DNA from: Chondrosia reniformis
Taxonomy: Eukaryota > Porifera > Demospongiae > Chondrillida > Chondrillidae
Direction of reading: 5' to 3'
Assembly: GCA_947172415.1 (NCBI GenBank)
Contig: OX359201.1
Span: 1,116,001-1,180,000, forward strand
DNA: 64,000 bases
The notes under the pieces: generated by a model
Databases searched by the model: none
Seen by the model: only the letters and a program-made list of their open reading frames with translations
Told to the model about the DNA's origin: nothing
Program-made: the position numbers and the translations under genes
Shown here: positions 13,660 to 64,000 of the stretch, piece after piece
How the letters are laid out: the number at the start of each line of letters is the position of its first letter
Numbering within the stretch: position 1 is the first letter of the stretch

Positions 13660-13935
13660 TTCAGTCTGTAATAGTAAAGCTCCACTTTCCTAGTTGGTGG
13701 ATATAGCTGTAGATTTTGATTGAGCAAAATTCATTATAGTTTCTTCCTAAACCAATGGTTGGTCTGGATTATCACAACATGTAGAACCAGAGATACAAGA
13801 GACACCAGAACTGTCTCACAGATGATCAGGATAGACTACATAATTAACACTTGAATCAAATTTAACTGTGTCACAATTATTAGCCCACTAGCACATCAGC
13901 ACTTCCTATAATTGTTGAGCAAGGACACTTCAATA
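13660..13935 (-). pseudogene. relic of the collectin-like head exon
   Basis: Seen: on the minus strand this stretch follows the 3' third of the head exon of the array genes in order: the [13 protein letters not shown] equivalent, the Cys-Val-Ser block, the gtgtcac block (YYCDTG region) and the Ser-rich/CPC segment, up to 'gagcaaggacact'. It carries frame-breaking gaps and stops and no upstream exons. It is the leftmost trace of the family, 326 bp after PTRH1. It may mark the original edge of the array. Confidence 0.75.
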
Positions 13936-14182
13936 TGGCACCCCAGAGGAGGAAAATAAGGAATTTTGAATTTGGGATATTTACGTATACACATGCACTA
14001 TATTTATTTCTGTTTAATAACCACTTTGCAAACGTTGCAATTGTATACATATATATTAAGCATTGAAATATATTTGGACATTTTGGAAAAAGATATTTCT
14101 GCATACATAAAATATAAAGTATAATTAGTTATTAATCAAACACATATGAGTAATGCATGTTAACATGCACATCCTTTGTTGG

Positions 14183-15263
14183 TTATATTTCAGTCTGAAT
14201 GTAAAGCTCCACATTCCTAGTTGCAATAGCTTCATCCCCTTGATCAGCACACCAGCGAACCTCTATATTATCAGTAGATGGAGTTGTTAGTTTCTTCCTA
14301 AACCAAGGTTGGTCTGGATTATCACAGCATGTAGAACCAGAGACACAAGAGACACCAGAACTGTCCCACAGACGATCAGGATAGACTATTGGTTCCCAGT
14401 TAGTGTTTGGATTTCCAGTGTCACAATAATAGTCTCCTCCAACAAAACATGGTGGACTGGCACCTCCTGATACACAAGGGCAAGTGCAACGTGGGCAATC
14501 AGCATTTTCTGAACTCGTCTTTAGCCCTGCTGCATATGACCAAATATGTTGCCGTGGTGATCCTTGGGTAATTGAAATGCCATCCATATAAGGTCCATCA
14601 ATTGTTTGAGGTGGAGCAGCATAAAGTCCAAATGCATCTGGACTAAACCACTGGTAAGCTTCAATCATTCCACACACTTTCTTAACCTTCTTTCCAAGGC
14701 TATCAAAGTACACTGAACTGCACCCCTCTATAACAGATCTAGATCTCCTGCAATACTTTGTGCCGTTGTAATTAAAATTGCTTAGATTTGAAGGACATTC
14801 GTCTCCTTTATCCAAATCAAAGGACCCAATTCTCATCCATGTTCCATCTCCACAATGAGGATGTCCTCTAATGTAACAGAATTCATTGATAGAGGATCCA
14901 TTTCTGCTCTCTATCCAATACCATCCATCAGGACTGTCTGGATTGTTCAATGCTATCTCTTCACAGCTAAATGCAGGATAATCTGGAAATCTTCCATGAC
15001 ATGTACAAGGGAGAGCTGCACAGTATAATAGATTTGACATGATGCATTGCTTGATGCAATGATTATAAAACTACTATTATATATATATGTAGCAATTTGT
15101 TATATACGTATGTGAATATATTACCTCTTGGTCCTCGATTTCCATTTGGATCTGCATGCACAGCTGGATCTTCTCTTCCCTGTGGTACAGGAGGTACAAT
15201 ATGGCTGTACACTTGATATAGCTGAGAGACTAGGAGAAACAGGATTACTCCAAAGAAAGTCAT
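14183..15263 (-). CDS. stalk-less collectin-like secreted protein, copy A
   Basis: Seen: two exons in phase, 15125-15263 and 14183-15015 (323 aa). Exon 1 gives a signal peptide ([20 protein letters not shown]), then a Pro-rich linker and NGNRGPRG, all that is left of the collagen stalk found in copies C-K. Exon 2 follows at once with [21 protein letters not shown] and the Cys-rich head. The collagen exon 2 and the neck are absent. The head has the family blocks [69 protein letters not shown] and QPWFRKK, ending YIQTEI. Loop sequence is unique (GLYAAPPQ; KTSSENADCPRCTCPC). A TATAAAAGG lies at 15314-15322. Secretion is inferred; without a stalk it should not trimerise through collagen. Confidence 0.85.
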
Positions 15264-15313
15264 TATTGATATAGCTTTAGATTCTCTGAAATGAAAAGTG
15301 CATACAGCACAGT

Positions 15314-15322
15314 CCTTTTATA
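15314..15322 (-). promoter_or_regulatory. TATA box of copy A
   Basis: Seen: TATAAAAGG on the minus strand, 51-59 bases upstream of the copy A ATG; the same element at the same spacing precedes copy B. Confidence 0.6.
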
Positions 15323-15520
15323 GTTGAGGCTGACTCACAGAGAAGTCCCATCTGACATGACCAGAACATGATATAATAGTTTCACTGTGGATGGTAATTT
15401 AAAATATATAGTGGGTTACAGGGTTCCTATATATAGCTAGACATAGAGCTACTAAGGTCATAAGAGGCCTAGGGGATTGAAAACATATACATGTGATAAT
15501 TTTAAATCATGATAGATATA

Positions 15521-16150
15521 TAGGTTATTGAGCTTTCCTTAGCAGCATGAAACAATTTATTTTAGGACATTTTGGTCCTAGACCTTCATCAGCAGAATAG
15601 ATAATACAATTTAAGCTACAGAACTAATCAAGAGAACTGATAGGTATACATGTACGTATATATAGGAGAGACAGGAAGGAGTCGTGAGAAGAGGAGCTTG
15701 GAATACAAGTTGGCAATGAAAATAGGGGACAAGAACAATGGAATTGCAGTCCATGCATGGAGTTCCCAACATATGGTCAACTGGGAGGCTGCCAAGGTAA
15801 AGTATGTGGAAAGACACCTTTGGAGGAGGAAGACCTTGGAAGCAATTCATATCTTTAGAAGTCCCCAAACCTCCAACCTGGACAATGGAGTGTCATTAGA
15901 CAAGATCTGGCTCCCCTACATTGCACCACCAAACCATCCACAACAAATTAATAACAATTTTATTTCATATTGTACTATTTTTAGTAACATTTTGCAATAA
16001 CTCATGACATCACAGTTTTCTCCACTTGTCAGTACTCTTGATTAGTTCTGGAACTCCAATTGTATTATTCAGCTGATGAAGGTCTATGCTACGTTGCTTG
16101 TATGACAGATAGGTTATAGAGCTTTCCGTAGCAGCATGAAACAATTAGGA
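15521..16150 (+). mobile_element. Penelope-like element fragment with GIY-YIG domain
   Basis: Seen: plus-strand frame 15650-16000 encodes YIGETGRSREKRSLEYK, then NGIAVHAWSSQH, then LEAIHIFRSPQTSNLDNG. This is the GIY-YIG endonuclease layout (YIG, then Arg, then Glu) with the R-x-x-x-E-A and L-D-x-G tail typical of retroelement GIY-YIG domains. It is flanked by imperfect direct repeats ('gagctttccttagcagcatg' at about 15530; the same with one change at about 16118), each near a CTGATGAAGG or its complement. Known: Penelope-like elements combine a reverse transcriptase with a GIY-YIG endonuclease and have terminal repeats. The RT is missing here; a dead, shortened copy. Confidence 0.7.
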
Positions 16151-16494
16151 TGTTTTGAACCTTTATGCAATCAATGCATGTAAATCACAATTTAAACCTA
16201 TAAATGTTTAAGTTTTATGTGTTCATTAACTAGGATATACCATTAACAGCTCCAGGTTATACCAGTCAACAAGTACAATCATACAAATCGCCTGGGTAGC
16301 CATTTTGAAATCATTATTATACTCTTTCCATTCCTGTGGATTTGTTATACTAACTGTATATATGTATTCTATATGCAACATGTTACTATGTAATTGATCA
16401 TGAAGTTAAATTTCTTCTAGTAATCCATGGCCACAAGAATAGTATACATATAGCTATATAAAAAGGGGCTCATCAGGTAATTGATTGCACTATT

Positions 16495-17430
16495 GAGTAA
16501 CCTGCAGCTGCTGATGACAAACCAAAGGATTAGCCAATAATTAAATGTGTTCACCATATAAAATACTACACAATCACTCAGAGTGAAATCATTATGTCTG
16601 GACTAGATTAACCTGACTTCCTTACTGAAATGAAATTTCAATAAATTTCTGTAATGAAATTTCAGTAAGGAAGTTGCACCTGATGAACCACTAATTAAAT
16701 GTGTCCACCATATATAACATACAATCACTCAGAATGAACATATTATCATGTCTGGGACATATATATTAACTGGAGCTTTGCTGCCCCTGCACAAGTCATT
16801 GAACTGATTTTCCGGCTGAAATGGAACTCAGTTCAGTTACAATTGGGAAAGTCATCCCAATTTTTTCACTGCCCACATAAGGTTAACATCTTATATTGAA
16901 TAATGGTATTATGTAAAGTTACAATTTCAAGTTAAAAATCAATTGTAAGCATCATTAAAGACTACTATTATATGTTGAAATTACACTGAGTTACACACAT
17001 AGATAGTATGTAATAATATAATAAAATACATACGTATAATAACATATGAATACACTAATCTATAGCAACATAGTACAATAGATCAAATGACACATATAAC
17101 CCACATATAGTAATAATAAAGTATAATGCATAGAATTAGCTAGCTACAAAAGAATCTTGAGCATATGTTGCTTAAAATCAATTTTTAAGCTTGAAAGTTG
17201 TAAACAGTTTGTATGACATCATTTTTTTGACACAGGATGTTAACGTGGGCGGTGAAAATACATTTTGTAAGCTTCCACCCCCCTTGCACAATACTGACTT
17301 CCTCATTGAAATGAAACTCTCATTTCAGTTAGGAAGTGAGTGAATTCTATAATCATGTCCCAGACATGACTGGGTGAACACATGTACATTTAATTAGTGA
17401 GTTCATCATCAACAGCTGCAAGTTAATAAG
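16495..17430. mobile_element. composite element with terminal inverted repeats
   Basis: Seen: the left end ('cagctgctgatga', later 'aattaaatgtgttcacc') and the right end (complement of 'ggtgaacacatgtac' and 'catcatcaacagctgca') are inverted copies about 60 bp long. Two internal foldbacks of the same type, 'acttccttactgaaat' with its complement (16611-16673) and a shorter one (17292-17340), lie inside. No transposase frame is seen. It looks like a MITE or a nested pair of MITEs. Confidence 0.5.
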
Positions 17431-17918
17431 TACCATCAACTACCTATATATAGTTTGAAATAGTGAGATATAGAAATATATAAAGTGAGCAACTTTTGAA
17501 ATATATGTATGTATACTGTATATTTTTATTATTATTATTCGTGTGGACTACTAGAAGATTAATTGTTTCACTTAAAATTCTTTAAAGTACATATACCTGA
17601 ATAATAAATATACCAGGGTCCTGATATAGGAATGGACAATTCTTTCAAATACATACGTATACGAGGGCCTGCATGCTGCTAGCACTGTTCAAGATTCCAT
17701 GAGAGGCTTGCACCATAATGTATGTCAATCTGTATGCAGCATGTATGTATTTTGTCAATCGAAAGCACTCATATAATTTGCAGAAAACACAGTTTATGAG
17801 TCTATCTATGAGGTACAGGATGAAAGAAGTTGACATACAATCTACAGGTACATGTAAACAATGTAGTTCTAGAAAGTTGTTATGAGGTGAGAAGGTAAAG
17901 AAGAAATGCCTCTCTGCT

Positions 17919-18290
17919 TTAACCACACTCTACAAAATTAGAGGCTTTTTGCCACCAAAATTGAAGACACTTCTGTATCAGTCAATGGTGCAGCCCCACA
18001 TTGACTACTGTTTGTGGGTGTCTGGGCAGAATGCTGCAAGTATGATGACATCAAGTTGGATAGGATCCAAAAGAGGGGGATATAGGCTGATTTTAAATGA
18101 ATCCTGGAATTGCCCAATTGTCAAAATGAGGTCTAGGTTGGGAGGGATGTCGCTAAGTAACAGAAGAAGGATGTTTAGAGCTATCTGTACAAGACGGTAT
18201 ATAGGAGAGGCACTTGTCCAGAGTGACCAACCTACTCAAAACACAAAAGGATTTAGGTCTGCATGGCACCAGAAGAGAAGATGATATATA
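17919..18290 (+). mobile_element. non-LTR (LINE) reverse transcriptase 3' fragment
   Basis: Seen: translated text FLPPKLKTLLYQSMVQPHID, then YC, then NESWNCPIVKMRSRLGGMSL, then NRRRMFRAI. Known: 'L-Y-x-S-x-V-x-P-H-x-D-Y-C' and the 'LGW-x-x-L-x-x-R-R' block lie C-terminal to the RT core in many LINEs. The expected W/G spacing after DYC is disturbed, so a frameshift is likely. A dead copy ending at the copy B arm. Confidence 0.7.
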
Positions 18291-18593
18291 CAATGTATCT
18301 ACCTACTCCTAAATCTAAGTGGATGACCATTTTATCTGCATGTATGTATGTGTGTGTGTGTCAAGTCCCCCAGTTATACCAGCCTTTGGCTAAGGGGTTT
18401 TCATACATGATTTATAATTGTCACTTTATTATATGGTTTCAATCTCCTCTTATGACATTAGTAGCTCTATGTCTAGCTATATATAGGAACCCTGTAACCC
18501 ACAACTATATATTTTAAATTATCATCCACAGTGAAACTATTATATCATGTTCTGATCATGTCTGATGGGACTTCTCTGTGAGTCAGCCCCAAC

Positions 18594-18602
18594 TATAAAA
18601 GG
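18594..18602 (+). promoter_or_regulatory. TATA box of copy B
   Basis: Seen: TATAAAAGG, 51-59 bases before the copy B ATG (18653), matching copy A. Confidence 0.6.
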
Positions 18603-18652
18603 ACTGTGCTGTATGCACTTTTCATTTCAGAGAATCTAAAGCTATATCAATA

Positions 18653-19721
18653 ATGACTTTCTTTGGAGTAATCCTGTTTCTCCTAGTCTCTCAGCTATAT
18701 CAATGGTACAGCCATATTGTACCTCCTGTACCACAGGGAAGAGAAAATCCAGCTGTGCATGCAGATCCAAATGGAAATCGAGGACCAAGGACATACGTAT
18801 ATATATAACAAATTGCTACATATATAATAGTAGTTATATAATCATTGCATCAAGCAATGCATCATGTCAAATCTATTATACTGTGCAGCTCTCCCTTGTA
18901 CATGTCATGGAAGATTTCCGGATTATCCTGCATTTAGCTGCGAAGAGATAGCATTGAACAATCCAGACAGTCCTGATGGATGGTATTGGATAGAGAGCAG
19001 AAATGGATCCTCTATCAATGAATTCTGTTACATTAGAGGACATCCTCATTGTGGGGATGGAACATGGATGAGAATTGGATCCTTTGATTTAAATAAAGGA
19101 GACGAATGTCCTTCAAATCTAAGCAATTTTACTTACAACGGCACTAAGTATTGTAGGAGATCTGTTGATGGAGGTTGCAGTTCAGTGTACTTTGATAGTC
19201 TTGGGAAGGAGGTTAAAGAGGTGTGTGGAATGATTGAAGCTTATCAATATGCAAGCACAGATACATTTGGACTTTATGCTGCTCCACCTCAAACAATTGA
19301 TGGACCTTATATGGATGGCATTTCAATTACCCAAGGATCACCACGGCAACACATTTGGACTTATGCTGCTGCAATACAAGGATATACAGGCATAATCCAT
19401 AAATCTAAGTGTCCTTGCTCCTCAACAGGAAGTACGGCTAGTCCACCAAGTTTTGTTGGAGGAGACTACTATTGTGACACTGGAAATCCTACTGCTACCT
19501 GGAGACGAATACTCTATCCTGATCGTCTGTGGGACAGTTCTGGTGTCTCTTGTGTCTCTGGTTCTACATGCTGTGACAATCCAGACCAACCTTGGTTTAG
19601 GAAGAAACTAACAACTCCTTCTACTGATAATATAGAGGTTCGCTGGTGTGCTGATCAGCCAAGATATGATGAAGCCACACCAACTAGGAAAGTGGAGCTT
19701 TACATTCAGACTGAAATATAA
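18653..19721 (+). CDS. stalk-less collectin-like protein, copy B (altered splice site)
   Basis: Seen: inverted copy of A. Exon 1 begins at 18653 ([20 protein letters not shown]). The donor GTAATA used by copy A has been deleted, and read-through from exon 1 meets a stop within a few codons. The head frame 18864-19721 is nevertheless fully open, with all cysteines kept and loops clearly different from A (YASTDTFGLYAAPP; AAAIQGYTGIIHKSKCPC). One rescue is visible: donor TAC|GTATAT after 18796 and acceptor CATCAAG before 18855 would give a 58-base intron and stay in frame (336 aa). Either this works, or B is a recent pseudogene; the divergent but unbroken head favours selection. Ends YIQTEI. Confidence 0.6.
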
Positions 19722-19916
19722 CCAATAATGGATGTGTTAACATTTAACATGCATTATTTATATGCATTATAAATACTGTCATCATTTGCATATACATATA
19801 TACATTCAGGAACACAATGTATGTCTTTTGAAATTCTTTATAATTATGCAAATATATATATATATTCAGCATAATGTTCATGCAGTAATATTGAATCAAG
19901 CATGATCATGAATTGG

Positions 19917-20045
19917 GATGAGGATACAAAAGTCTTAATTCTCTTCCTTCCTTTGCTCCATTGGACCAAACAGCTGTTTCTGGGAATTACAACCTTAATC
20001 AGTGACCCTGGGAATCGCTATCTCTTTCTTGACCTTTTTGTATCC
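19917..20045. repeat. dispersed repeat R2, copy 2
   Basis: Seen: matches 8450-8580 in order ('gaggatacaaaa', 'acagctgtttctggga', 'gaccctgggaatc'). It lies between copies B and C. The rest of the 19746-20190 gap is AT-rich without features. Confidence 0.5.
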
Positions 20046-20190
20046 TTGGTTCTCTATGCTAAATTAAATGTAGAAGTTATATATGGACAATTTTGGTGCT
20101 AAAAAGTTAATGCTTGCACTGGTCATGAAACAACTTAACAATTGTACATAACACAATCATTCCAAAAGTATAACGGTCTTCAAATACAGT

Positions 20191-21775
20191 TTAAATTTGT
20201 ACATAAACTTCCACCTGAGTAGTAGCTGCAGCTTCACCAGTTTTTGCACTATTACCACACCAGCGAACTTCTATATTATCAGTAGAAGGAGTTGTTAGTT
20301 TCTTCCTAAACCAAGGTTGGTCTGGATTATCACAACATGTAGAACCAGAGACACAAGAGACACCAGAACTGTCCCACAGACGATCAGGATAGACTACTGG
20401 TTCTGCATAAGGTTTCGTATTTCCTGAGTCACAATAGTAGTCTCCTCCCACAAAACTTGGCGGACTAGTATTACCATTTCCTCCTGATGAGCAAGGGCAT
20501 TTACATGTTATACAGTGACCACCTGTATTTTCATATGCTCCTACAGCGTAGGTCCAAATGTGTTGCCTTGGAAATCCTTGTGTGATTGAAATGCCATCCA
20601 TATAAGGGTCATCTATTGTTTGACCAGAACTGGCATGAAATGCATCTGGAGTGTTCCACTGGTAAGCTACAATCATTCCACACACTTCTTTAATCTCATT
20701 TCCAAGGCTATCAAAGTACACTGAACTGCAATTCACATCAACTGATTGTCTACAATACCATCTCTTGTTATAAGCAAACCTCTCAAGAGATGGAGGACAC
20801 TCTGCCAAGTGACGACCAGTATAAAAGTAGCCTATTCTCATCCAAGCTCCCTCTCCGCAATAATGATGTCCTTGAAGGTAGCAGTAGATCTTAAGAGTAG
20901 AGTTGTCTCTGGAGTTCCTTATCCAATACCATCCATTGTGGCTTTGTGGGTTATTCTTTACTATCTGATCACAGCTATCAGCTGGATAGTCGTAGGAGAG
21001 TCCAAGTTGAGTCTGTCCAATCTTCAGTTCAATCTGATCATCTATGTAGTCCTTAGATTGCTGTTGGAGTTGAGTGGTGATTCTGTTCTCAGTGTTTGTA
21101 TCCAGTATGGTAATACCAGGTGGTCCAAATTGTCCAGGAGGTCCAGATCTTCCAGGTGGTCCTGGCTGTCCAGATGGACCAGATGGTCCACTAGTACCAG
21201 GTAGACCAGGTGGACCTACAAGACAAGTAAATGTTTATCATAATATTAGGTATTAACTTATATGTATAGACCTAACAATAATTGTGCAATTTGTGTTCTT
21301 GGTTCTGTTTAAATAGGATATTTGTCAATATTAAATGTATGGTAAATGGTCAAAATCATACAAGAGTTAGTTAAATGCTGTGTATCTCCTCACCTGATGG
21401 TCCTGTATCTCCTCTTGGGCCAACAGGACCCTCTACTCCTTGTACACCTTGTAATCCCATATTACCTGTGTATACAGGAAGCTTTTATTTATGACTGAAT
21501 TATGGATAAATCTAGCATGTTTGTTTACTGATACCTCTTGGTCCTGGATTTCCCCTTGGACCCACTGGACCTTCCCCTCCCTGTGGACCTGGAGGACCAG
21601 CTGGCCCTTGTGCTCCAGGAGGTCCAGTGGGTCCATCACGTCCATCCCTTCCGGGTACTCCACGAAAAGTCAACTGAAACTCTGTAACATTATCAGCAGT
21701 AAAGTCAGCTACATCACTGTAGACTTGATATATCTGAGAGACAATGAGAAACAGGATTACTCCGAATAGAGCCAT
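20191..21775 (-). CDS. collectin-like secreted protein, copy C
   Basis: Seen: three exons, all joined at phase 1: 21535-21775 (signal peptide, NVTEF glycosylation-type site, 14 Gly-X-Y triplets), 21394-21465 (72 bp, 8 triplets including [10 protein letters not shown]), and 20191-21215 (12 triplets, neck, head); 445 aa. The stalk is 34 uninterrupted triplets. The neck ([20 protein letters not shown]) has helical spacing. The head starts [18 protein letters not shown], resembling the start of a fibrinogen-related domain, then passes through conserved blocks to QPWFRKK and RWC. C has the beta-type N-lobe ([29 protein letters not shown]), shared with H and K. Unique: YCDSGN instead of YCDTGN, extra Cys in loop 2 ([11 protein letters not shown]), end YVQI. 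Role in recognition or matrix is inference. Confidence 0.88.
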
Positions 21776-22589
21776 ATGTGTTTAAGACTGTACAGAACTA
21801 CTTAATATGTATATATAAATTGAATTGATGTGATATAAATGGGGAAGCTATTACACCAATTAGCACAGATCAACCTAGATATATCTATCTATAATGAACA
21901 CTGCCATAAATGTACATAATATAGTGCATGCATTAGTTTGTTTTGCACTGGTTTCATTTAATGTTGGCATAATAAGGTATACACAGCTTATTCATAATGC
22001 ACACTGCATGCTAAGTCCTCAGTTCATATCATCTCCTATTTTTAGGGCTGCCCCTATATATTGATTTCATAACGCAATTTATGTATGGCTTCATGTTACA
22101 GTTCATACGCAACTATTATAACACTTATTTTATACGTCGATATATGTATAGGAGTTCATATATACGCAACTATTGTAACACTTAATTTATACGTCAGTAC
22201 ATCGTTTTTGCAAATGGCGGCGTTCAGGAAGCTTTAATTAACGAAGCTTTTCTGTCGCTATTTATAATGTTCAGGACACTTAAGCGTCCTCAATCGTTAG
22301 GATTAAGAATAGTATATCAAAGCCCAACGATGCGGCCAAGTAGTTCGAGTTAATTCGGGAGGCGGTAGCCCCACGAGTTTTTAAACTCGAAATACTTGTC
22401 TAATTATTTTTCATTCGTTTTTTAATTATTAATTATTTGCATGTTAGTATAGTATATAAATATAGCACTAGCCTTTGGAATGCAATTCCTATATTTTCTA
22501 TGTATTCATTGTACCATATTGCACTTGCGTTTTTACTCGAGCAATTGCGGTAGGTTGTACTACGTACTGGCCGACTGTATACACTTAGC
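21776..22589. promoter_or_regulatory. divergent intergenic region, copy C / PNPLA gene
   Basis: Seen: copy C (-) and the PNPLA6/7 homolog (+) start 814 bp apart. A stretch near 22320-22410 ('gccccacgagttt', 'actcgaaatacttg') has a weaker relative near 31345-31395 ('gccccatgagttt', 'actcaaaatatttg'), so a dispersed repeat flanks the PNPLA fragment on both sides. No other gene is seen; promoters are presumed here but no clear TATA was assigned. Confidence 0.35.
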
Positions 22590-30972: not shown

Positions 30973-31657
30973 GTTAGTAATGTGTAGCAGTGCAGGCTGC
31001 ATTACCAAGCCAATACCAAAATGTAATAACATAAAGGGTTTTTGAGGTGCCAAAGGTGCCCCTATATTAAAATTAGGTTTTAGTATGGCTTCCTGTTTTT
31101 ACCCTATATATGTCTACAAAATGGTGGATGGCTTTCATTTTCTATATAGCTAGGCTTTCTCGTCCTTTGCATTGAACATTGAACCAGAGGAAAGGATTTA
31201 GAAACCACCTTTACTAATACTATGTAAAGTAAAGGTTGTGCAAAAACATTTTCTATGAGATACAGTATGGCCTTGAAATTGATGGCAATTAAGCAACGAC
31301 CGGAATCAGTTAACCTGACATCTAAGAACCAGCAAGTAGTTTGAGTTTGGGGCACTAGCCGCCCCATGAGTTTATTCAACTCAAAATATTTGTTTTTGTA
31401 TGTAAATACGATAACTTTACCTTATCAAAATGTTTAAAGTGTCAGCCACTAAATCTCTTTCATCAAGTGTATTTGGTTCTCTTAATTTTAAGCAAGCATT
31501 TAATGATTACAAATAACAACTAATAAATGATGAACTAATGTGGAAAGTGATCAACTGTACGAACTATGAAATTTCAGTTCAATTTTCGTTTATTTGTATG
31601 CTGATAAGTACGGTTAGTACTATATTGTCCAAACAGTATTCTTCACTGTTTTGTTGA
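30973..31657. other. end of visible PNPLA gene to copy D
   Basis: Seen: after the exon 17 donor (CAA|GTTAGT) comes AT-rich DNA with no further plus-strand PNPLA exon. It includes the relative of the 22320 repeat at about 31345-31395. The 3' flank of copy D begins near 31590. Confidence 0.5.
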
Positions 31658-33766: not shown

Positions 33767-34057
33767 CTCAGTAATAGTGTAATTTAGGGTGTATGCAATA
33801 CAGCTGATATATATATATACAGTATATAGTATGAAGGTTGACTCATAACGAAGCCATTAATTTCACCATTGTTACCTAGTATGAGGACTATCAACAATAT
33901 TGAAAGTTGCATGTAACCCACAAGTTGACCTTGTGTATTGAGGTCTGTCTAATTTCTTGAGTTAATTTAATAATGTTGTTATTGCTTTGATGGATCATTG
34001 TATGACCTTTAATTGGTTCCATGCTGCACAGATGTTCTAGCTAAGCATAGTTAACTA

Positions 34058-35600: not shown

Positions 35601-35662
35601 CTCTGGAATCAAACCCAGGACAGCTGGTTATGACCACCAGTGCTCTGCCACTATACTCCATC
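35601..35662 (-). repeat. tRNA-derived SINE piece, copy 1
   Basis: Seen on the minus strand: an A-box-like AGTGGCAGAGCACTGG and a B-box GGTTTGATTCC, separated by a tRNA-like anticodon region containing GGTCATAACC. The acceptor arms do not pair, so this is not a tRNA gene. Further copies: 47047-47108, 51341-51403 and 62401-62464. Confidence 0.6.
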
Positions 35663-52223: not shown

Positions 52224-53772
52224 TTACATGTCATTAGTCTTTATGAACAGCTCCACTTGCCTAGTTGCAGTAAACTCATTTGATCTTGATTCATCAGCAC
52301 ACCAGCGAAACTCTATGTTATCAGTAGAAGGAGTTGTTAGTTTCTTCCTAAACCAAGGTTGGTCTGGATTATCGCAACATGTAGAACCAGAGACACAAGA
52401 GACACCAGAACTGTCCCACAGACGATCAGAATAGACTACTCCTTCGAAATTACTATTTGGATTTCCAGTGTCACAATAGTAGTCTTCTCCAACAAAACTT
52501 GGTGGACTAGCAGTACCACTTCCACCTGCTGAACAAGGACATTGGCTGGTTGAAGACTGTGCTGTGTTATGAACTCCTATAACATAACTCCAAATGTGTT
52601 TCCGTGGTGATCCTTGGGTAATTGAAATGCCATCCATATAAGGTCCATCAATTGTGTATAAGGAACTATAGATAAATGCATCTGGTGAGCTCCACTGATA
52701 AGCTTCAATCATTCCACACACATCTTTAATCTCATTTCCAAGACTATCAAAGTACACTGAACTACATCCTTCATCAACTGATCTCCTGCAATACTGCTTA
52801 CTGTTGTAAGTATACGTGTTCAGACTTGAAGGACATCCTACTCCTCTATTCAAATCAAAGTATCCGATTCTCATCCATGTTCCATTTCCACAGTGAGGAT
52901 GTCCTCTAATGAAACACAGCCATCTGCTAACAGATCCATCTCTTCTGTTCTGTATCCAGTACCATCCATCAGGGCTGTGAGGATTACATATTGCTATCTC
53001 TTCACAGCTGAATGCAGGATAATCTGAAGACCTTCCAAGTCTAGTTTTTGTATTCTTGCCCTCAAGATGTCTTGTATTCTACTAGTATATAGTAGTTATG
53101 CTGTGTAAATAGGAGGTATAGAACTCTACATATATCTAAATAGGAGTATTCATGTACAGGAAGATATTAATACAATATGATATAAATCATGCAGGTTAGC
53201 TGCTAGTTGTGTATCTCCTCACCTGATGGTCCTGTATCTCCTCTTGGTCCAACAGGACCCTCAACTCCTTGTACTCCTTGTAATCCCATATTACCTGTAT
53301 ATACAGGAGTACGTTTGTAGCTTATATAGTATATCTAAAGTAGTATCATTATTCATGTGTTGAAAGTGTACATACATATATATATAATTCCTCTTATATA
53401 GTCATTGCAGTCAAAGAGCAAAAATAAGCCTTGTATGATGAATATATACGTAATTCTAGTATCATTAAATCTGTTGAATACAATACCTCTTGGTCCTGGA
53501 TTTCCCCTTGGACCCACTGGACCTTCCCCTCCCTGTGGACCTGGAGGACCAGCTGGCCCTTGTGCTCCAGGAGGTCCAGTGGGTCCATCACGTCCATCCC
53601 TTCCAGGTACTCCACGAAAAGTCAACTGAAACTCTGTAACATTATCAGCAGTAAAGTCAGCTATATCACTGTAGACTGCATTTATTGATAACAGAAGTAG
53701 TATTCCTAAGACTTGATATACTTGATATACTTGAGAGACAAGGAGAAACAGGATAACTCCAAAGACAGCCAT
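52224..53772 (-). pseudogene. collectin-like copy I, stalk/neck deleted, fused signal peptide
   Basis: Seen: exon 1 is 53487-53772 (286 bp, 45 longer than usual) and exon 2 is 53223-53294. The head exon runs open from 52224 to about 53057, then breaks exactly after KNTKTRLG into intron 2 sequence ('cttgccctcaagatgtcttg'), removing the 12-triplet stalk end, most of the neck and the splice acceptor. No AG in the required phase was found in the roughly 60 bases before the break. Exon 1 encodes a type I signal followed by a type II signal core (SQVYQVYQ then [15 protein letters not shown]). Head: alpha N-lobe, type X end (FIKTNDM), unique loop WSSPDAFIYSSLYTIDG. Probably non-functional unless a cryptic acceptor is used. 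Confidence 0.75.
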
Positions 53773-55294
53773 CTCAGTTATAGTGTAATTTAGGGTATAT
53801 GCAATACAGCTGATATATATATACAGTATATAGTATGAAGGTTGACTCATAAGGAAGCCATTAATTTGACCATTGTTTCCTAGTATGAGGACTGTCAACA
53901 ATATTGAAAGTTGCATGTAACCCACAAGTTGACCTTGTGTATTGAGGTCTGTCTAATTTCTTGAGTTAATTTAATAATGTTGTTATTGCTTTGATAGATC
54001 ATTGTTTGACCTTTAATTGGTTCCATGCTGCACAGATGTTCTAGCTAAGCATAGTTAACTATATATAGGTATATAGGTATTAACATATACATTCAGTCCA
54101 AGGAGTCCTTTTGCATGCAATCAATTTAGGCAAATTTTCTGTTCTAAGTTCATTTATTAAACAGTACTATATCTTATTCAATGTACTGATTTGTGAACAC
54201 AAATAGATTTTCCCAGTTTCAATTAAAAAGACATGCACGGCATTTTATTAAAATTTCACCTTTTTATGCCCCCTTTTGCAAGTTGCAAGTGCTATAACCA
54301 GAAACCATGTACGTATACATATATACAAGCCCTATCACTTCACATATATGTGTTGTGAGTGTATGTGAATGCAGTGAAATATTATGCTCTTGGCTTACTC
54401 TGCAGTTACAAGGTACATCAAATTTACTGTTGTTAATTGAGATCCCTTAAACAGACTGCCTTTTTTGAAATTAAAATAACATGAGGCAAATGTAATTGAT
54501 AAGGCATGTGGTGTGGCTTATATTAAACACAAAAATACATGTGTCTGTGATGTAGGATTGATAATTCCACTTGCCTAATTAGTGTATATAGCTTCATGAG
54601 TAGTATCACTGACATTCCACATTATGGTATAAGAAAACAGTTGTACATTGTATTTGGATGGATTCTTCTACCAATACAGTTGGAGAGGCCATCCATCCAT
54701 ACAGTGACCTATGAATATCTTTGGTGATTCAAATTTTATTATAAAGAGTGTATAAATGTGCAGTATATTGTATGAATAATTGAAGAGAAAATCAAACCAC
54801 AAGTAATTATAAAAAGTATCAATTTGAAACATCTTGAAGGTCTTCATTTAGTAATTGGTTTCTTTATCAAGACCCAGCCCCAGCCCCTTTTCCAGTGGGA
54901 GAGGCCATCTTAACCAATGGGTCACTCAGTTTGTATTTCTGATCTCATGACCTGTAAATTAAAGTTTTGTATGTATAATTGCCGAGTATTTTTCTTATGT
55001 ATATATATTGTGTATGAAAATGCAGTTAAATTCAGTCAAATACGTATATGTAGCTTTTTAAATATTTTAGTCATTTAAGTGTATGTTCTTCAAGGTTCAA
55101 ATGTAGTGCATATCTTGTTTAATGGTTCATCTAGTTAATGTCTTAATTAAGATTTAATATGCATGTATACGAAACCACTTGTCAATTGACATTTCTAATA
55201 CATGATGTAAATAATTTGATAATATTTTTGCATTGTTGTACATAAGTAAATTCAGTTTCAAGTAAAACACGCATGTTATCAGATTTTATGTTGG
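53773..55294. repeat. type I intergenic module between I and J (shortened)
   Basis: Seen: follows the other type I modules to 'tttgaaacatcttgaaggtc' near 54835, then resumes at 'ccagccccttttccagtggg', so the SINE is missing. The conserved 60-codon frame and following sequence are replaced by AT-rich DNA after about 54975. Confidence 0.65.
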
Positions 55295-56951
55295 TTATAT
55301 TTCAGTCTGAATGTAAAGCTCCACTTTCCTAGTTGGTGTAGCTTCATCAGATCTTGGCTGATCAGCACACCAGCGAACCTCTATATTATCAGTAGAAGGA
55401 GTTGCTAGTCTCTTTCTAAACCAAGGTTGGTCTGGATTATCACAGCATGTAGAACCAGAGACACAAGAGACACCAGAACCGTCCCACAGACGATCAGGAT
55501 AGACTATTCCTTCATAATTACTATTTGGATTTCCAGTGTCACAATAATAGTCTTCTCCAACAAAACTTGGTGAACTAGCAGTACCACTTCCTGTTGATGA
55601 ACAAGGACACCTACATTCAGGACAATCACCATTGTCATATACTCCTACAACGTAGCTCCAAATGTGTTGCCGTGGTGATCCTTGGGTAATTGAAATGCCA
55701 TCAATATAAGGTCCATCAATTGTGTATGAGGAACTAGAATGAAATGCATCCGGACTTGCATATTGATAAGCTTCAATCATTCCACACACATCTTTAATCT
55801 CCTTTCCAAGACTATTAAAGTACACTGAACTACAACCTCCATCAACTGATCTCCTGCAATACTGCTTACTATTGTAAGTAAGAGTGTTCAGATTTGAAGG
55901 ACATCCTACTCCTCTATTCAAATCAAAGTGTCCGATTCTCATCCATGTTCCATTTCCACAGTGAGGATGTCCTCTAATGAAACACAGCCTTCTGCTAACA
56001 GATCCATCTCTTCTGTTCTGTATCCAGTACCATCCATCAGGGCTGTGAGGATTACATATTGCTATCTCTTCACAGCTGAATGCAGGATAATCTGAAGACC
56101 TTCCAAGTCTAGTTTTTGTATTCTTTAGTTCTATCTGATCATCTATGTAGTCCTTAGATTGCTGTTGGAGTTGAGTGGTGATTCTGTTCTCAGTGTTTGT
56201 ATCCAGTATTGTAATACCAGGTGGTCCAAATTGTCCAGGAGGTCCGGATCGTCCAGGTGGTCCTGGCTGTCCAGATGGACCAGATGGTCCACTAGTACCA
56301 GGTGGACCAGGGGAACCTACAGTACAAGACCTGGTTTAACCATTTGAAATATTAATCTGTGTTGCAATTTGTAATTTGTGATGAGTAATTGTAAACTGAT
56401 GATGTTAATATAGTTGAAATCAGAGAACCTAACTCTAATAGTTGAAATTCCTCACCTGATGGTCCTGTATCTCCTCTTGGTCCAACAGGACCCTCTACTC
56501 CTTGTACACCTTGTAATCCCATATTACCTGTATAATACAGAAGTACAATTGCAATCTTTTGTTACTGATATATAGTATATCTACAGTTATTCATATGTTG
56601 AAAGTGTATATACGTACGTCTCATATATAGTCATTGAAGTCAAAGAGCAAAAAGCAACCTTGTATAATGATTATGTAATTCTAGTATCATTAATCTGTTG
56701 AATACAATACCTCTTGGTCCTGGATTTCCCCTTGGACCCACTGGACCTTCCCCTCCCTGTGGACCTGGAGGACCAGCTGGCCCTTGTGCTCCAGGAGGTC
56801 CAGTGGGTCCATCACGTCCATCCCTTCCAGGTACTCCACGAAAAGTCAACTGAAACTCTGTAACATTATCAGCAGTAAAGTCAGCTACATCACTGTAAAC
56901 TGCATGTATTGATAACAGAAGTAGTACTCCTAAGACTCCAGTAGGACACAT
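55295..56951 (-). CDS. collectin-like secreted protein, copy J
   Basis: Seen: exons 56711-56951, 56456-56527 and 55295-56316; 444 aa. Type II signal ([20 protein letters not shown]). Alpha N-lobe, type Y end (YIQTEI). Loop 2 is the Cys-rich kind ([15 protein letters not shown]), as in F. Loop 1 [17 protein letters not shown]; loop 3 [13 protein letters not shown]. Odd: GSP at the start of exon 3, GQFGPPG in the stalk (as in C), WDGSGVSC for WDSSGVSC, and FRKRLATP for FRKKLTTP. Introns are short. Confidence 0.9.
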
Positions 56952-59060
56952 GACTACGTGTACTATGCTGAGTTCTAAAAATCTGTTCAACCAGAACTAT
57001 ATCACCTCTTTATATGTATATTTTAGTGAGTAGATTATGTCAACTGTTTTTCTACGAAATGTTAGGTTAATATAACAGTATCTTTAAATGCATTCCTTAT
57101 AACCTCCAGTCTCTGTGTCTACTTATTAACTTGTTTTTATACCTGTATCATAGTATTTCTGTCCAATAATTATAACATGAAAGTACGAAGTTCTTGGTGT
57201 GTAAGCAATGAGATCTATAGGAGAATGTATGGAGTATTTGTGAATTGCAAAGCTACCAATTATCCTGTAACCAAAATATTAGCAGAAATACTTGGCAGAA
57301 ATACTTGGCAGAAAGTGAAAGTTTGTAAAGTTTTGTATTTTGTATTCAAGCAAACAATTGCTGTATGAGTATTCAACCTACAAGTAATCATTCACAAGCT
57401 TTATGAGGAATAGAGGGAAAATACTTGAACATTGAACGAAACAATTGCTGGCAATGTAATATGTGACAGCTGAAGGAGACCACACCTCCGTCCCTTCCAT
57501 TTACTCAACTAATGTTACTCCTAAGACTGACACACATGACTACATGTACCTCACAGAGTTCTAAAGCCTTTGCTCAACCAAAACATTATTACACCTTTAA
57601 ATTTATGTATGCTAGTGAGTAGTTATGTCAATTGTTTCATCTACAAAATGTTAGGTTAGTGTAGCAGTACCTTTTAATGCATTCCTAACAACCTCCAGTC
57701 TCTGTGTCTACATAGCAATTTGTTTTTGTACACTTGTATTTATTTAGATAGTATACGTTATTATCTGTTGGTATTACTCTCCAATAGTCTGATAATCTGT
57801 ATATACATGTAGGTGTAACATTCTTGGTTTGCAAGCAATGGGATCTATAGGAGAACATATGGAGTATTTCTAATTTGCAGACATTTATTGTACTAGAGAA
57901 ACACCAGATAAAATGATTGACATTAATTAGTAGTTTGATGGAATTGTTTGGGTGTTGCAAAGATTCAATGTTGAATGTGTATTAATAGTATCTCCGTCAG
58001 ACACACTTTATTGTTTTATTATCTTAGTAACATATCTATAAGCAACTTACGTAACACGAGCAGAGAATAGCTGGAATTGCTTGGATATTTTTTAATTGCT
58101 GTAGTAGTTTACTGACATGCTAATTTATTGATCTAGTGGTCATGCATTAAAAGAAGCAACACCACACAGAGAAAGATTATAGAATTAAACTTAATCATTT
58201 TCTTATTTTTGCCTTAAAACATCCTCGTGGCCTGGACACATTAACTTTGCCCATGTTTGTTCCCACAAAAAGTTACATCCGAAAACCAAATTTGTAGATT
58301 GCAAGAGAAAGAGACTAAGTATATGTAAAAAGGCTTCTGAGACCTTAATTTGCTACCTAGCTCATGTTGCCTCCCCTCCCCTGCAAATATTTGGTTCTGT
58401 TGGTCGTGGTTGGAGTGTGCAGCATTAAGGAGAAAGATGCACCCCAAATGTATTTTAAAATCTTCTTTTTATTGTATTTATTTTCAGCTACAAAGCAGTC
58501 TCTTAGACCTTTGTCACACAGGCCATGACACTCCACGTAAAAATGTTGCACCTGTAGGACAAGTTGGAAGCTTGTAACTTGACATTGCATAGTGAACAGA
58601 ACCACAGAGAGAGAAGGATGTGTTTATATATTATGTGAATACAGGCTTCATGCAGAACTCTATGTTTATATATGAAGCTATGAAGCGATCCTCTGTGAGT
58701 CTAAGCCATCTACGTAATTAGCATTTATTGTATTATTTTGTTAATTAACAAGTATATACCAAAACGTATACATTTTGTCATCTGTCATTGATTGATTTCA
58801 TTGATTTCATTGTCATACACCCAAAATAGATGCTCACTGCAAAACCAACCTCATTCTTCAAGAAATGTTATGTATGGATATACAAAAGTAAAAGGAAAAT
58901 TAAGGTTTAGTACTGCTTTGTAGTGCATAATGTCTTAATTAAGGAACATGTGGTTTTAGATTCAAATATTTTGTGTCTTCACACTGAGTAAGTGGTGATT
59001 ACAGTTTGAGTGAACTATGCAACAAAGTGATAAGAGCAGTATTCTTAACAGTTCTTTCGG
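56952..59060. repeat. type II intergenic module between J and K
   Basis: Seen: same as 42098-43870 up to about 58000, with the decayed second promoter and start near 57515-57690. The 58000-59000 part matches the distal half of the E-F module (39690-40400), which F-G lacks in part. No gene. Confidence 0.7.
57005..57014 (-). promoter_or_regulatory. TATA box of copy J
   Basis: Seen: TATAAAGAGG, 54-63 bases before the ATG at 56951. Confidence 0.6.
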
Positions 59061-61199
59061 TTATATTTCAGTCTGAATGTAAAGCTCCACATTCCTAGTT
59101 GCAATAGCTTCATCAGATCTTGTTTGATCACCACACCAGCGAACCTCTATATTATCAGTAGAAGGAGTTGTTAGTTTCTTCCTAAACCAAGGTTGGTCTG
59201 GATTATCACAGCATGTAGAACCAGAGACACAAGAGACACCAGAACTGTCCCACAGACGATCAGGATAGACTATTAGTTCCCAGTTAGTGTTTGGATTTCC
59301 AGTGTCACAATAATAGTCTCCTCCGACAAAACTTGGTGGTCTAGCAGTGCCACTTCCACCTGATGAACAAGGACACTTGGAATTAGGGTGGGGCTGTACT
59401 GCATTTTCTTGTAGTCCAACAACGTAGCTCCAAATATGTTGCCGTGGTGATCCTTGGGTAATTGAAATACCATTCATATAAGGTCCATCAATTGTGTATG
59501 AGGAACTAGCGCCAAATGCATCTGGTGAGTTCCACTGGTAAGCTTCAATCATTCCACACACCTCTTTAATCTCCTTTCCAAGACTATCGAAGTACACTGA
59601 ACTACAACCTACATCAACTGATCTCCTGCAATACCATCTCTTGTTATAAGCAAACCTCTCAAGAGATGGAGGACACTCTGCCAAGTGACGACTAGTATAG
59701 AAGTAGCCTATTCTCATCCATGCTCCCTCTCCGCAATAATGGTGTCCTTGAAGGTAGCAGTAGATCTTAAGAGTAGAGTTGTCTCTGGAGTTCCTTATCC
59801 AATACCATCCATTGTGGCTTTGTGGGTTATTCTTTACTATCTGATCACAGCTATCAGCTGGATAGTCGTAGGAGAGTCCAAGTTGAGTCTGTCCATTCTT
59901 CAGTTCAATCTGATCATCTATGTAGTCCTTAGATTGCTGTTGGAGTTGAGTGGTGATTCTGTTCTCAGTGTTTGTATCCAGTATGGTAATACCAGGTGGT
60001 CCAACCTGTCCAGGAGGTCCAGATCTTCCAGGTGGTCCTGGCTGTCCAGATGGACCAGAAGGTCCACTAGTACCAGGTGGACCAGGGGGACCTACAAGAT
60101 GAGAGAATTGTAAAATAGAGGCGACTGTTTAAATCATATCCCTTATTTATGTTTAAATGGCGCAACCTTGTGCATCCTTCTGGAATTCGACAGGTGTATG
60201 CATAGTGTTCTTTAATCTATGTTGTACGTGAGCGATGGGTGATGATGAGCGATGGGTAATATTGAGTGATGACTATTGAATTGCCAGGTTTGACAACGGG
60301 TGCAAGCCAGTCGACTATTCAGCGCCAAAGGGTTTTGCAGGGTTAGACGACACACCTGGAGATGGATGGTCTATTAGCATGCTTTCTTTGCTTTCTTTTT
60401 TTGCTAAGCTGAACTGTATGACAGTTAGTCCTATAGTCCTATAGCATAATGTATGCATGTGTGTGTACCTGTGTATGTATGTGTATTTGTATGTAAGTGC
60501 TTGCCCTCACAATGTCTTGTATTCTACTAGTAGTAGTTAATGTGTAAATAGGAGATTTGTGTACAACTATGAGAATTAAAGGTTTAAATATAAGTATTCA
60601 TATTCAGGTCAACTGATAATACAATATGATTAATATCATGCAGGTTAGCTGCTAGTTGTGTATTTCCTCACCTGATGGTCCTATATCTCCTCTTGGTCCA
60701 ACAGGACCCTCTACTCCTTGTACTCCTTGTAATCCCGTACTACCTGTATATATAGGAAGCATTTATATTATATCCAAAAATACAATCTTTTGTTATTATA
60801 CTAATATAGTAGGTGATAATAAATCTAAGATAGTATGATTATTCATATGTTGAAGGTGTATCCTCTTATATAGTCAAAATTAGATATATCATTGCAATGA
60901 AAGAGCAAAAAGTGACTTGTACGTAATTCTAGTATCATTAATCTGTTGAATACAATACCTCTTGGTCCTGGATTTCCCCTTGGACCCACTGGACCCTCCC
61001 CTCCCTGTGGACCTGGAGGACCAGCTGGCCCTTGTGCTCCAGGAGGTCCAGTGGGTCCATCACGTCCATCCCTTCCAGGTACTCCACGAAAAGTCAATTG
61101 AAACTCTGTAACATTATCAGCAGTAAAGTCAGCTACATCACTGTAGACCTGATATAACTGAGAGACAAGGAGAAACAGGATAACTCCAAAGACAGTCAT
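59061..61199 (-). CDS. collectin-like secreted protein, copy K
   Basis: Seen: exons 60959-61199, 60672-60743 and 59061-60091; 447 aa, the longest copy. Type I signal variant ([20 protein letters not shown]), partly like A/B. Beta N-lobe as in C and H; type Y end ([10 protein letters not shown]), the same as A. Loops: [34 protein letters not shown], the longest loop 2; [13 protein letters not shown], close to A (NTNWEPIVYPDRL). These shared pieces suggest past exchange between the left inverted pair and the right array. Exon 2 reads [10 protein letters not shown]. Confidence 0.9.
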
Positions 61200-63392
61200 T
61201 TTGAAACTACGTATCCTTGTCTCTATATAGAATCATCTCAATAATAGTGTAATTTAGGGTATCTGCAATACGTATATAGTACAATATAGCAACTCATAAC
61301 AAGCCATTAATTTACCTACGTAATATGAAGACTATCAATAATATTCATTGAAAGTTGCATGTAACCCACAAGTTGACCTTACAGTATGTCTGTCTAATTT
61401 CTTGAGTTAATTTAATAATGTTTTTATGTTAATGTTGTTAATGTAATAATTTAATAATGTTGTTTTTGTTTTGATGGAGCATAGTACGTATATAGGACCT
61501 TAATTGGTCCCAAACAGTGCACAGATGTCCTACGTATATAGCATATATACAACCATACAGCCGCTGTATAGTCTAGCTAAACTGTAGTTGATATCTATGC
61601 CAACAACTGATTCTGTAGTATACTTGTTGATTGTTAGTATAGGTGACACATCCAGGGTGTGCTTTTCATGTGTTTAGCTCAGGCAAAGTTTCTGTTCATT
61701 TATTAAACAGTACTACGTATGTCTCATTCAATGCACTGATTTGTGAACACAAATAGGTTTTCCCAGTTTTATTAAAATAGACATGCACAGCATTTTATTA
61801 AAGGGTCACCTTTTTATGCCCTTGTTTACAAGTTACAAGTGCTATAACCAGAAACCATGCATGTATACATATATACAAGCCCAATCACTTTACATATGTG
61901 TGTTATATGTGTATGTGAATGCAGTGAAATATTATGCTCTTACCTCACTCTTCAGTTACAAGGTACATCAAATTTACTGTTGTTAATTGAGATCTTTTAG
62001 GCAGGCATGGCTGTTTTGAAATTAAATGAAACAAATGTAATTGATAAGCCAGCTTATATTAAACACAAAAATACATGTGTCTGTGATGTAGGATTGATAA
62101 TTCCACTTACCTAATTAGTGTATAGCTTCATGAGTAGTATCACTGACATTCCACATTATGGTATAAGAAAACAGTTGTACATTGTAGTTGGATGGATTCT
62201 TCTACCAATACAGTGGGAGAGGCCATCCATAGGGTGACCTATGAGTATCTTTGGTGATTCAAAATGTCATGATTAAGAGTGTATAAATGTGCAGTATATT
62301 GTATGAATAATTGAAGAGAAAATTCAGATCACAAATACATAATTATAATAAGTATCAATTTGAAACATCATGAAGAGCGAAAAACATGAAAGAAGCAACT
62401 GTCTGGAATCGAACCCAGGACAGCTGATTATGACCACCAGTGCTCTGCCACTAATACTCCATCCATGTTGTGTATGTAACATTTCTAGACCCCTCTCTTT
62501 CCCCTCTTATAACTACAAGAAAGTGATTAGTATTTATTTACTAATTGGTGGTGAGTCTCACCCCAGCCCCTTCTCCAGTGGGAGAGGCCATCTTAACCAA
62601 TGAGTCACTCAGTATGTATGTCTGATCTCATTAGTCGGACTCTTAAAGCTTTGGATATGTATTTGTGATTATGTATTCATACCTGTGAGTTGAAGTTTCA
62701 TGTGTTTAATTGCCGAGCTACAGTACGTACGTATAAAGTGAGGCAACAGAGATGGCCCCCGTTTGTATGTATATATACGTATATATCCATTCCAGTCAAC
62801 CCGAGACACCTCACTCAATTGCACAAGCTTCTATTATCTATTATAGGTCTTACACAACAAACGCACCAAAGAACATACGTTTATATTCGTCCCAGGCAAA
62901 TCGGGATACCTTGCTCGATTGCATAAGCTTCAGTATATCTAGTATACTTATCAACAAAAGCCTTCACTTTTCTATGTAACTCTTGCAAAAAGGAATAAGA
63001 AAGAGCAAGGAAGGCTTCAGACTTCAAAGACCTGTATACCCAAGTTATTAATTAAATAGTTTGTTTTAGTTGATAGACTGTACATGTATTTAGATAAAAG
63101 TTTGCGCATCTTAAACCTATTGTATTTGAAGATCTAGAGTGACCCATAGTACTGTTATTAGATTTCAGTATGTATACTACTTACAGGAGGTAACTCTGTA
63201 TATACACATGAATGTACATCTTTAATTTCATTCATGTAAAGAGATAATTTTCACATACATGTAAATTTGTTTGTGGAGTTTCAGATCAATTTTGTTATTT
63301 CTATTTGTATGCTGATATGCTGATTAATATGGTTAAGTATGGTTAGTACTACATGTATATTGTCCAAACAGTATTCTTTACTGTTTTGTTGA
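61200..63392. repeat. type I intergenic module between K and L
   Basis: Seen: most divergent type I module. It keeps the SINE piece (62401-62464). The conserved small frame is disrupted near 62752-62990, where the segment 'tcccaggcaaatcgggatac' is a second, changed copy of 'tccagtcaacccgagacac'. Confidence 0.65.
62401..62464 (-). repeat. tRNA-derived SINE piece, copy 4
   Basis: Seen: B-box GGTTCGATTCC and A-box-like AGTGGCAGAGCACTGG on the minus strand, one base longer near the 5' side than the other copies. Confidence 0.6.
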
Positions 63393-64000
63393 TTACATGT
63401 CATTAGTCTTTATGAACAGCTCCACTTGCCTAGTTGCAGTAAACTCATTTGATCTTGGTTCATCAGCACACCAACGAACCTCTATATTATCAGTAGAAGG
63501 AGTTGTTAGTTTCTTCCTAAACCAAGGTTGGTCTGGATTGTCACAGCATGTAGAACCAGAGACGCAAGAGACACCAGAACTGTCCCACAGACGATCAGAA
63601 TAGACTACTCCTTCGAAATTACTATTTGGATTTCCAGTGTCACAATAGTAGTCTCCTCCAACAAAACTTGGTGGACTAGCAGTACCACTTCCACCTGATG
63701 AGCAAGGACATTGGTGGTATGAAGACTGTGCTGTGTTATGAACTCCTATAACATAACTCCAAATGTGTTGCCGTGGTGATCCTTGGGTAATAGAAATGCC
63801 ATCCATATAAGGTCCATCAATTGTTTCAGAAGAACTAGATTGAAATGCATCTGGACTTCCAAACTGATAAGCTTCAATCATTCCACACACCTCTTTAATC
63901 TCCTTTCCAAGATTATCAAAGTACACTGAACTACAACCTCCATCAACTGATCTCCTGCAATACCTCTTATTGTTGTAAGTAAAAGTGTTCAGATTTGAAG
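63393..64000 (-). CDS. collectin-like secreted protein, copy L (3' part)
   Basis: Seen: the head exon runs open from the stop at 63393 to the window edge; the start, stalk and neck lie beyond. Visible text begins [19 protein letters not shown], with NNKRYC intermediate between alpha (NGKQYC) and beta (NKRWYC) forms. Loops: [45 protein letters not shown]. Type X end (FIKTNDM), as in I. By the four-gene period it corresponds to H. Confidence 0.88.
   Translation of the reverse strand, partial: SNLNTFTYNNKRYCRRSVDGGCSSVYFDNLGKEIKEVCGMIEAYQFGSPDAFQSSSSETIDGPYMDGISITQGSPRQHIWSYVIGVHNTAQSSYHQCPCSSGGSGTASPPSFVGGDYYCDTGNPNSNFEGVVYSDRLWDSSGVSCVSGSTCCDNPDQPWFRKKLTTPSTDNIEVRWCADEPRSNEFTATRQVELFIKTNDM

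Follow-up and report, generated by a model that had tools for sequence, protein, structure and literature searches.

Short-chain collagen C4 of Ephydatia and the spongin short-chain collagens were reportedly described by Exposito in 1991 and Aouacheria in 2006. The fibrinogen, intelectin and procollagen C-propeptide families have an A-subdomain in common; intelectins are not known to carry a collagen stalk, and the fibrinogen-related proteins (FREPs) of snails are secreted, multigene and diversified by recombination. How sponges, which have no antibodies, separate friendly from hostile microbes is an open question. According to PMC12181767, extracellular microbes are dense in the mesohyl of the sponge Chondrosia reniformis and can make up as much as 70% of the tissue. 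Here we analyse a 64,000-nucleotide stretch of its genome (contig OX359201.1, C13 in our numbering, positions 1116001-1180000; henceforth the window), which bears an array of genes with a collagen stalk and a head; in the C-terminal part of this head a conserved, cysteine-rich frame carries three and perhaps four hypervariable loops. This suggests that proteins commonly taken for skeletal collagen could have a role in the recognition of microbes or other cells.

Results

The window contains 12 head-bearing copies (eight intact, two stalk-less, one broken and one cut by the window edge) and one relic, exactly the cluster that a first-pass annotation had proposed for 13.7-64 kb of the window. 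It does not end with the window: the full array runs from C13:1130186 to C13:1214445 (84 kb), 34 kb further. It gives 22 rows of head matches, and in 18 of these the head is whole and free of internal stops (rows were counted exon by exon, and a row is not always a separate gene). The other 11 window heads are 64-93% identical to one window head, which excludes chance likeness. Across the 117,379,552-base assembly (15 contigs) there are at least 144 head matches (144 of the 326 candidates were scored), including the 22 of the window array, which is one among many related groups spread over several contigs.

All eight intact gene models have the expected order of signal peptide, unbroken Gly-X-Y stalk, neck and Cys-rich head (signal peptide and neck were assigned by eye). 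Each is a single open frame in three exons, encoding 440-447 amino acids (counted from the ATG nearest the stalk) with 33-34 unbroken triplets and 14-18 Cys, and no membrane anchor was found in any of them. Exon 1 encodes the signal peptide, ~18 further residues and 14 triplets, and exon 2 eight triplets; exon 3 adds 12 triplets (11 in one gene) and then the neck, ~35 residues long, and the head. The two introns, GT-AG and phase 1 alike, each interrupt a Gly codon, so that the Gly-X-Y run continues uninterrupted; the 34 triplets noted at first sight stand for seven of the eight genes, the remaining one having 33, and the head, put then at ~290 residues, is about 267-270 long.

Variability in the C-terminal part of the head is concentrated, among 20 aligned heads (18 from the array and the single copies on contigs C2 and C4), in three blocks set among near-invariant stretches: residues 114-127 (HV1), 153-167 (HV2) and 195-202 (HV3), numbered on the intact gene at 59061..61199 of the window, where they lie at 59493..59534, 59373..59417 and 59268..59291, all on the minus strand. 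HV1-3 make up 40 of the 192 columns of this part but hold 53% of its amino-acid entropy, and a 12-column entropy peak as high as the one observed appeared in none of 5000 shuffles (array statistics omit four of the 22 rows, which are broken or fragments, and the entropy and nonsynonymous counts omit the C2 copy). A possible fourth variable loop (HV4; residues 249-254, 59112..59129, minus strand) was defined after other arrays had been viewed, and the entropy and cross-array tests use HV1-3 only. The 18 array heads have 18 distinct forms of HV2, 16 of HV1, 13 of HV3 and 11 of HV4. The same three blocks, defined on the window array only, exceed the variability of the frame in arrays C7a (p 7e-8), C7b (9e-6) and C6 (1e-8) on two other contigs, represented by all seven listed heads, all six (one partial) and six of the nine listed, respectively.

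Pooled over the window array, the nonsynonymous distance (dN) is 0.49 in the loops vs 0.066 in the frame. The ratio of dN to the synonymous distance (dS), here w, is 0.24-0.30 for the frame in all four arrays (for the window array the C2 and C4 copies were omitted from this comparison, as they were from the recombination test below), and pooled loop w reaches 1.25 in C7a and 1.28 in C7b. It is at HV3 that dN exceeds dS in these two arrays (0.41 vs 0.06 in C7a, 0.37 vs 0.01 in C7b), a result picked from 17 loop values inspected and with intervals obtained by resampling few codons; HV3 is also their top 7-codon window by the difference between nonsynonymous and synonymous proportions (pN-pS), of 283 and of 285 windows, and the top window of C6 falls in HV1. 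A first count in the window array gave w of 1.27 for HV3, 0.71 for HV1 and 0.53 for HV2, and the HV3 excess of dN over dS was seen neither there nor in C6.

The heads are also mosaics. Residues 1-83, the part with the A-subdomain likeness to the fibrinogen-related domain (FReD), intelectins and COLFI (59625..59873 on the minus strand in gene 59061), come in two main types, A and B, whose DNA is 62.5% alike between types and 95 and 98% alike within them (w14 and w18, with a third N-part variant, were excluded from the A-type means), whereas the C-parts are 88% alike within A, 84% within B and 85% between the types. Over the first 90 alignment columns, heads c1205 and c1208 differ at 9-24 of every 45 bases, and over columns 106-240 at 0-2. 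Seven intact genes carry one or the other of two main C-terminal endings, and between them they show all four combinations with the N types; gene 20191 has a third ending. In a test of the pairwise homoplasy index (PHI) type on 158 sites none of 1000 permutations gave a value as low as the observed one. This pattern indicates that gene conversion or unequal exchange has shuffled parts of the head. The eight intact genes also have two types of signal peptide on near-identical downstream exons; each type is found with each of the two main C-terminal endings, while of the four possible pairings with N types A and B three are present.

In the PDB, the first ~60 residues of the head, the A-subdomain, match intelectins (E 8e-6, residues 6-66), angiopoietin FReDs (0.0015) and the procollagen C-propeptide (9e-4 at best). 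Of the Pfam families (21 heads, E <= 0.1), COLFI, the C-propeptide domain of fibrillar procollagens, matched 15 of the 21 (best 1.6e-5), Fibrinogen_C (PF00147) two (best E 0.0088) and PTCRA two (best 0.004); the C-type lectin domain was absent from these matches, as was C4 (PF01413). On four window genes COLFI scores 14.8-18 bits, below its curated cut-off of 26.2, and some relatives elsewhere in the genome exceed that cut-off with the A-subdomain alone. The bacterial GGGW domain of NCBIfam matches the A-subdomain in four of six single heads, two of them window heads and below cut-off. Beyond the A-subdomain the head reaches no Pfam family at E <= 0.1 and NCBIfam models only far below their cut-offs, in agreement with the first-pass view that it starts like a FReD and lacks an obvious standard remainder. 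Aligned by hhalign with the genome's own FReDs, the head is covered over residues 5-55 only (E 0.005, probability 7); with one C4 repeat of the genome's collagen IV NC1 the probability is 0.2, the single-sequence template making this a weak test. Several assignments were accordingly rejected: a whole ficolin head, given the two weak Fibrinogen_C matches and the short hhalign alignment; a collectin head, given the missing C-type lectin match in all 21; fibrillar-collagen membership, the four window genes scored lying below the COLFI cut-off; and collagen IV membership, no head matching PF01413.

A predicted model of the head, built from 12 sequences, is beta-rich, with a mean local confidence (pLDDT) of 66.8 and a predicted template modelling score (pTM) of 0.72. 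The comparison with FReD and lectin folds that had been proposed for it yielded a weak and partial match to intelectins (Foldseek probability 0.92-0.96 over ~130 columns, but E 0.05-0.08) and otherwise matches at background level. Of 20 single loci sampled elsewhere in the genome, two (L049 and L053) gave no open reading frame (ORF) under the filter; in the head exons of the remaining 18, a Gly-X-Y run of 5-43 triplets is present in ten and absent from eight. The A-subdomain motif is found in only ten of these 18 paralogues, and the A-subdomain therefore seems separable from the C-terminal unit of ~215 residues. The motifs of this unit look like those annotated in short-chain collagen C4-like proteins, and the head probably fits the spongin short-chain collagen kind.

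True FReDs form a separate family in this genome, with at least 142 Fibrinogen_C matches (counted exon by exon), many of them in tandem and notably at C6:2.12-2.37 Mb, on C12 and on C2; this is a second large family of lectin type. Less than 70 kb beyond the downstream end of the array there are also COLFI pieces and a Fibrinogen_C piece interrupted by stops (C13:1228443, 1260886 and 1280190). The genome has, moreover, a collagen IV-like gene at C1:10340145-10340934 (L009-L011), with C4 (NC1) matches above cut-off and collagen stretches upstream; PMC5395295 states that demosponges are without detectable collagen IV.

A tree was built on 62 rows, made up of 14 heads from the 20 in the variability alignment, 38 other sponge heads and 10 bacterial loci. 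It places the 52 sponge heads in one group, separate from the bacterial ones (100/100); it is unrooted, has several long branches, covers one animal genome and leaves out six heads of the array, those of L029 and a truncated duplicate. The array heads and the single copies on C2 and C4 form one clade (100/94), adjoining a small group at C13:548-558 kb (100/99), and the C7a and C7b heads are intermixed in another (100/100), with C6 beside it.

The bacterial relatives came to light in a pattern scan of genomes, which found one, 33% identical and forming the end of a repeat protein 1358 residues long in a deltaproteobacterial metagenome-assembled genome (MAG); its flanking genes are presumably atpD and secD/secF. 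A profile search of 377 genomes of the phylum of that MAG found matches in 92, most of those listed covering the A-subdomain only and at least 17 strong ones reaching the C-terminal unit. The head of the bacterial protein L054 is matched over residues 8-267, with 33% identity in the best segment, and its A-subdomain is matched by NF040941, the bacterial GGGW domain, at 1e-17. One bacterial relative sits on a 332-kb contig, which makes contamination unlikely there. Homologous heads occur in bacteria, probably Myxococcota; no report of such a homologue was met in the titles and abstract openings of the literature searched, which was mainly open-access. None of the 17 bacterial loci examined has a collagen stalk. 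In L054, L057 and L062 the head is linked with metal-binding or TSP3-type repeats or else with another domain, which begins with the same A-subdomain.

The eight intact genes all lie on the minus strand of the window, and in each the stop codon is at the last coordinate given below for exon 3. Type A is represented by two genes of 445 amino acids (exons 33766-33526, 33334-33263 and 32682-31658; 38566-38326, 38132-38061 and 37505-36481), two of 444 (42097-41857, 41650-41579 and 41423-40402; 56951-56711, 56527-56456 and 56316-55295) and one of 440 (45953-45713, 45500-45429 and 44880-43871), the last length being taken from the nearest of four in-frame ATGs. Type B is represented by genes of 445 (21775-21535, 21465-21394 and 21215-20191), 446 (50245-50005, 49821-49750 and 48984-47957) and 447 amino acids (61199-60959, 60743-60672 and 60091-59061). 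The 440-residue gene is the one with 33 triplets. A broken copy on the same strand (52224..53952) keeps exons 1 and 2 and the head and is without the exon-3 stalk and neck, and the head at 63393..64000 (minus) is cut by the window end, its remainder lying in L006/L014 (whole in L006).

At the other end of the array, a relic of head residues 186-225 (13756..13875, minus; tblastn 67.5% identity, E 7e-14) is followed by a stalk-less head copy in an open frame (14183..15070, minus), with an exon-1 remnant at 15120-15263, and by its inverted twin (18834..19721, plus), with a remnant at 18653-18790; both remnants are 35-38% identical to intact exon 1. These two heads lie with inverted-repeat arms at 14741-15412 and 18504-19163, 97-98% alike (347 nt at 97% and 286 nt at 98%). 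Between the arms, the ORF at 17886-18284 has no Pfam match and resembles a piece of the reverse transcriptase of a long interspersed nuclear element (LINE). The array is flanked in the window by genes of apparent housekeeping type, namely Thg1 tRNA-His guanylyltransferase, Fcf2 of pre-rRNA processing and peptidyl-tRNA hydrolase, together with a dehydrogenase piece below its cut-off; they are placed at 2007-3784 and 8672-9419 (both minus) and at 11478-11699 and 746-820 (both plus), coordinates derived by hand from the frames.

Discussion

We consider it somewhat probable, judging from sequence, that these genes encode recognition proteins which act as trimers and owe their diversity to duplication, to gene conversion and partly to selection. 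The products would be secreted and presumably trimeric, each chain consisting of a signal peptide, a 34-triplet stalk, a short helical neck and a cysteine-rich head, the latter combining the A-subdomain with a further domain that is probably a beta-sandwich and of the type seen in spongin short-chain collagens. Three chains would join through stalk and neck and display three heads, gaining avidity, the loops would form the ligand-binding surface, and the array would be a germline-diversified repertoire that binds glycoconjugate surfaces, microbial or other, within the mesohyl. The earlier suggestion of a soluble recognition system or a matrix collagen family is upheld in part: the variable loops on a conserved frame speak for the former, whilst its ficolin- or collectin-type head gives way to two weak Fibrinogen_C matches and no C-type lectin domain among the 21 heads.

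A bolder formulation, possible and in our opinion rather doubtful, would make sponge short-chain collagens as such a germline-diversified, antibody-like recognition system, with many trimeric heads in which a rigid frame bears three or four hypervariable loops, mixed through gene conversion and reading the surfaces of the dense microbiota of the mesohyl, and with a head held in common with bacteria, probably Myxococcota, through ancient or transferred stock. If the loops do bind ligands, proteins now classed as skeletal would have to be seen as a large repertoire for recognition, in which the candidate binding sites are already defined; were the bacterial link to be true, it would be a concrete case of a head common to animals and bacteria. 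Hypervariable loops, A/B mosaics or array diversification in short-chain collagens were not mentioned in the titles and abstract openings of the mainly open-access literature searched.

Several results weigh against the recognition of microbes by these loops. In the window array dS is raised in the loops as well (0.66 vs 0.21 in the frame), and part of the contrast is therefore due either to gene conversion, which would keep the frame homogeneous, or to relaxed constraint in the loops; frame stretches of 25-46 residues themselves have 12-14 distinct forms among the 18 array heads. Pooled loop w is 0.56 in C6 and 0.75 in the window array, and none of the four pooled values is clearly different from 1. 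Since the C7a and C7b heads intermingle in a single clade that has C6 as its neighbour, the three arrays are not independent, the HV3 excess is in effect that of one lineage and the recurrence of the loops that of two lineages at most. The head model, with pLDDT below 50 at residues 116-127 and 152-225, is poor in the loops and gives no basis for their closeness in space. The nearest named family, finally, is described as matrix collagen in PMC5395295 and PMC12549020.

This published view is the natural starting point of the explanation that comes next, by which the genes encode structural short-chain collagens of spongin type that build the sponge matrix, their loops being weakly constrained parts of the surface; we regard it as unlikely, though to be taken seriously. 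Chondrosia reniformis is supported by abundant collagen (PMC12181767), selection is unproven in the window array itself, where, as in C6, loop w is <1, and PMC3447736 has the short-chain collagens of Amphimedon rising in the adult, although scavenger-receptor genes and cadherins rise alongside them. Relaxed constraint, however, would not yield dN>dS at HV3 in the C7 arrays, and the heads have no detectable similarity to Pfam C4 (0 of 21) or, with one template, to the genome's collagen IV NC1 (hhalign 0.2). Moreover, three of the four spongin-like proteins of Nematostella are, according to PMC12549020, not expressed with fibrillar collagens and are found mostly in neuroglandular cells.

It is quite improbable that the variable heads mark individuals or cell types, not microbes, in allorecognition or self-adhesion. 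Sponges do show graft rejection, and germline diversity with gene conversion, as found in the array, is a feature of allorecognition loci too; the gene models, on the other hand, are without a membrane anchor, and there are many groups on several contigs, not a single locus. A neutral birth-and-death family with loop diversity devoid of function, to which the broken copies, the relic and the loop w <1 of the window array could be ascribed, is hardly credible in view of a frame under purifying selection in four arrays (w 0.24-0.30) and of the same loop positions being variable in other arrays.

Read as recognition proteins with a diversified head, the window genes share features with several described systems. 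The bacterial GGGW-domain proteins (NF040941) have the head on long, repeat-rich proteins, with no collagen stalk in the 17 loci. Compared to snail FREPs, the window genes have a different head, a collagen stalk and a sponge as host. Ficolins and other FReD lectins have the same order of parts and the same A-subdomain start, the rest of the fibrinogen domain not having been found in the window heads. Intelectins (X-type lectins, XEEL) are the best sequence match of the head in the PDB, a match that stops before the C-terminal part. As to the published link of the NC1 of spongin short-chain collagens to collagen IV, the window heads gave no detectable similarity of this sort in what was a weak test. 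These demosponge collagens have the build of the window genes, a short collagen stalk followed by a cysteine-rich C-terminal head.

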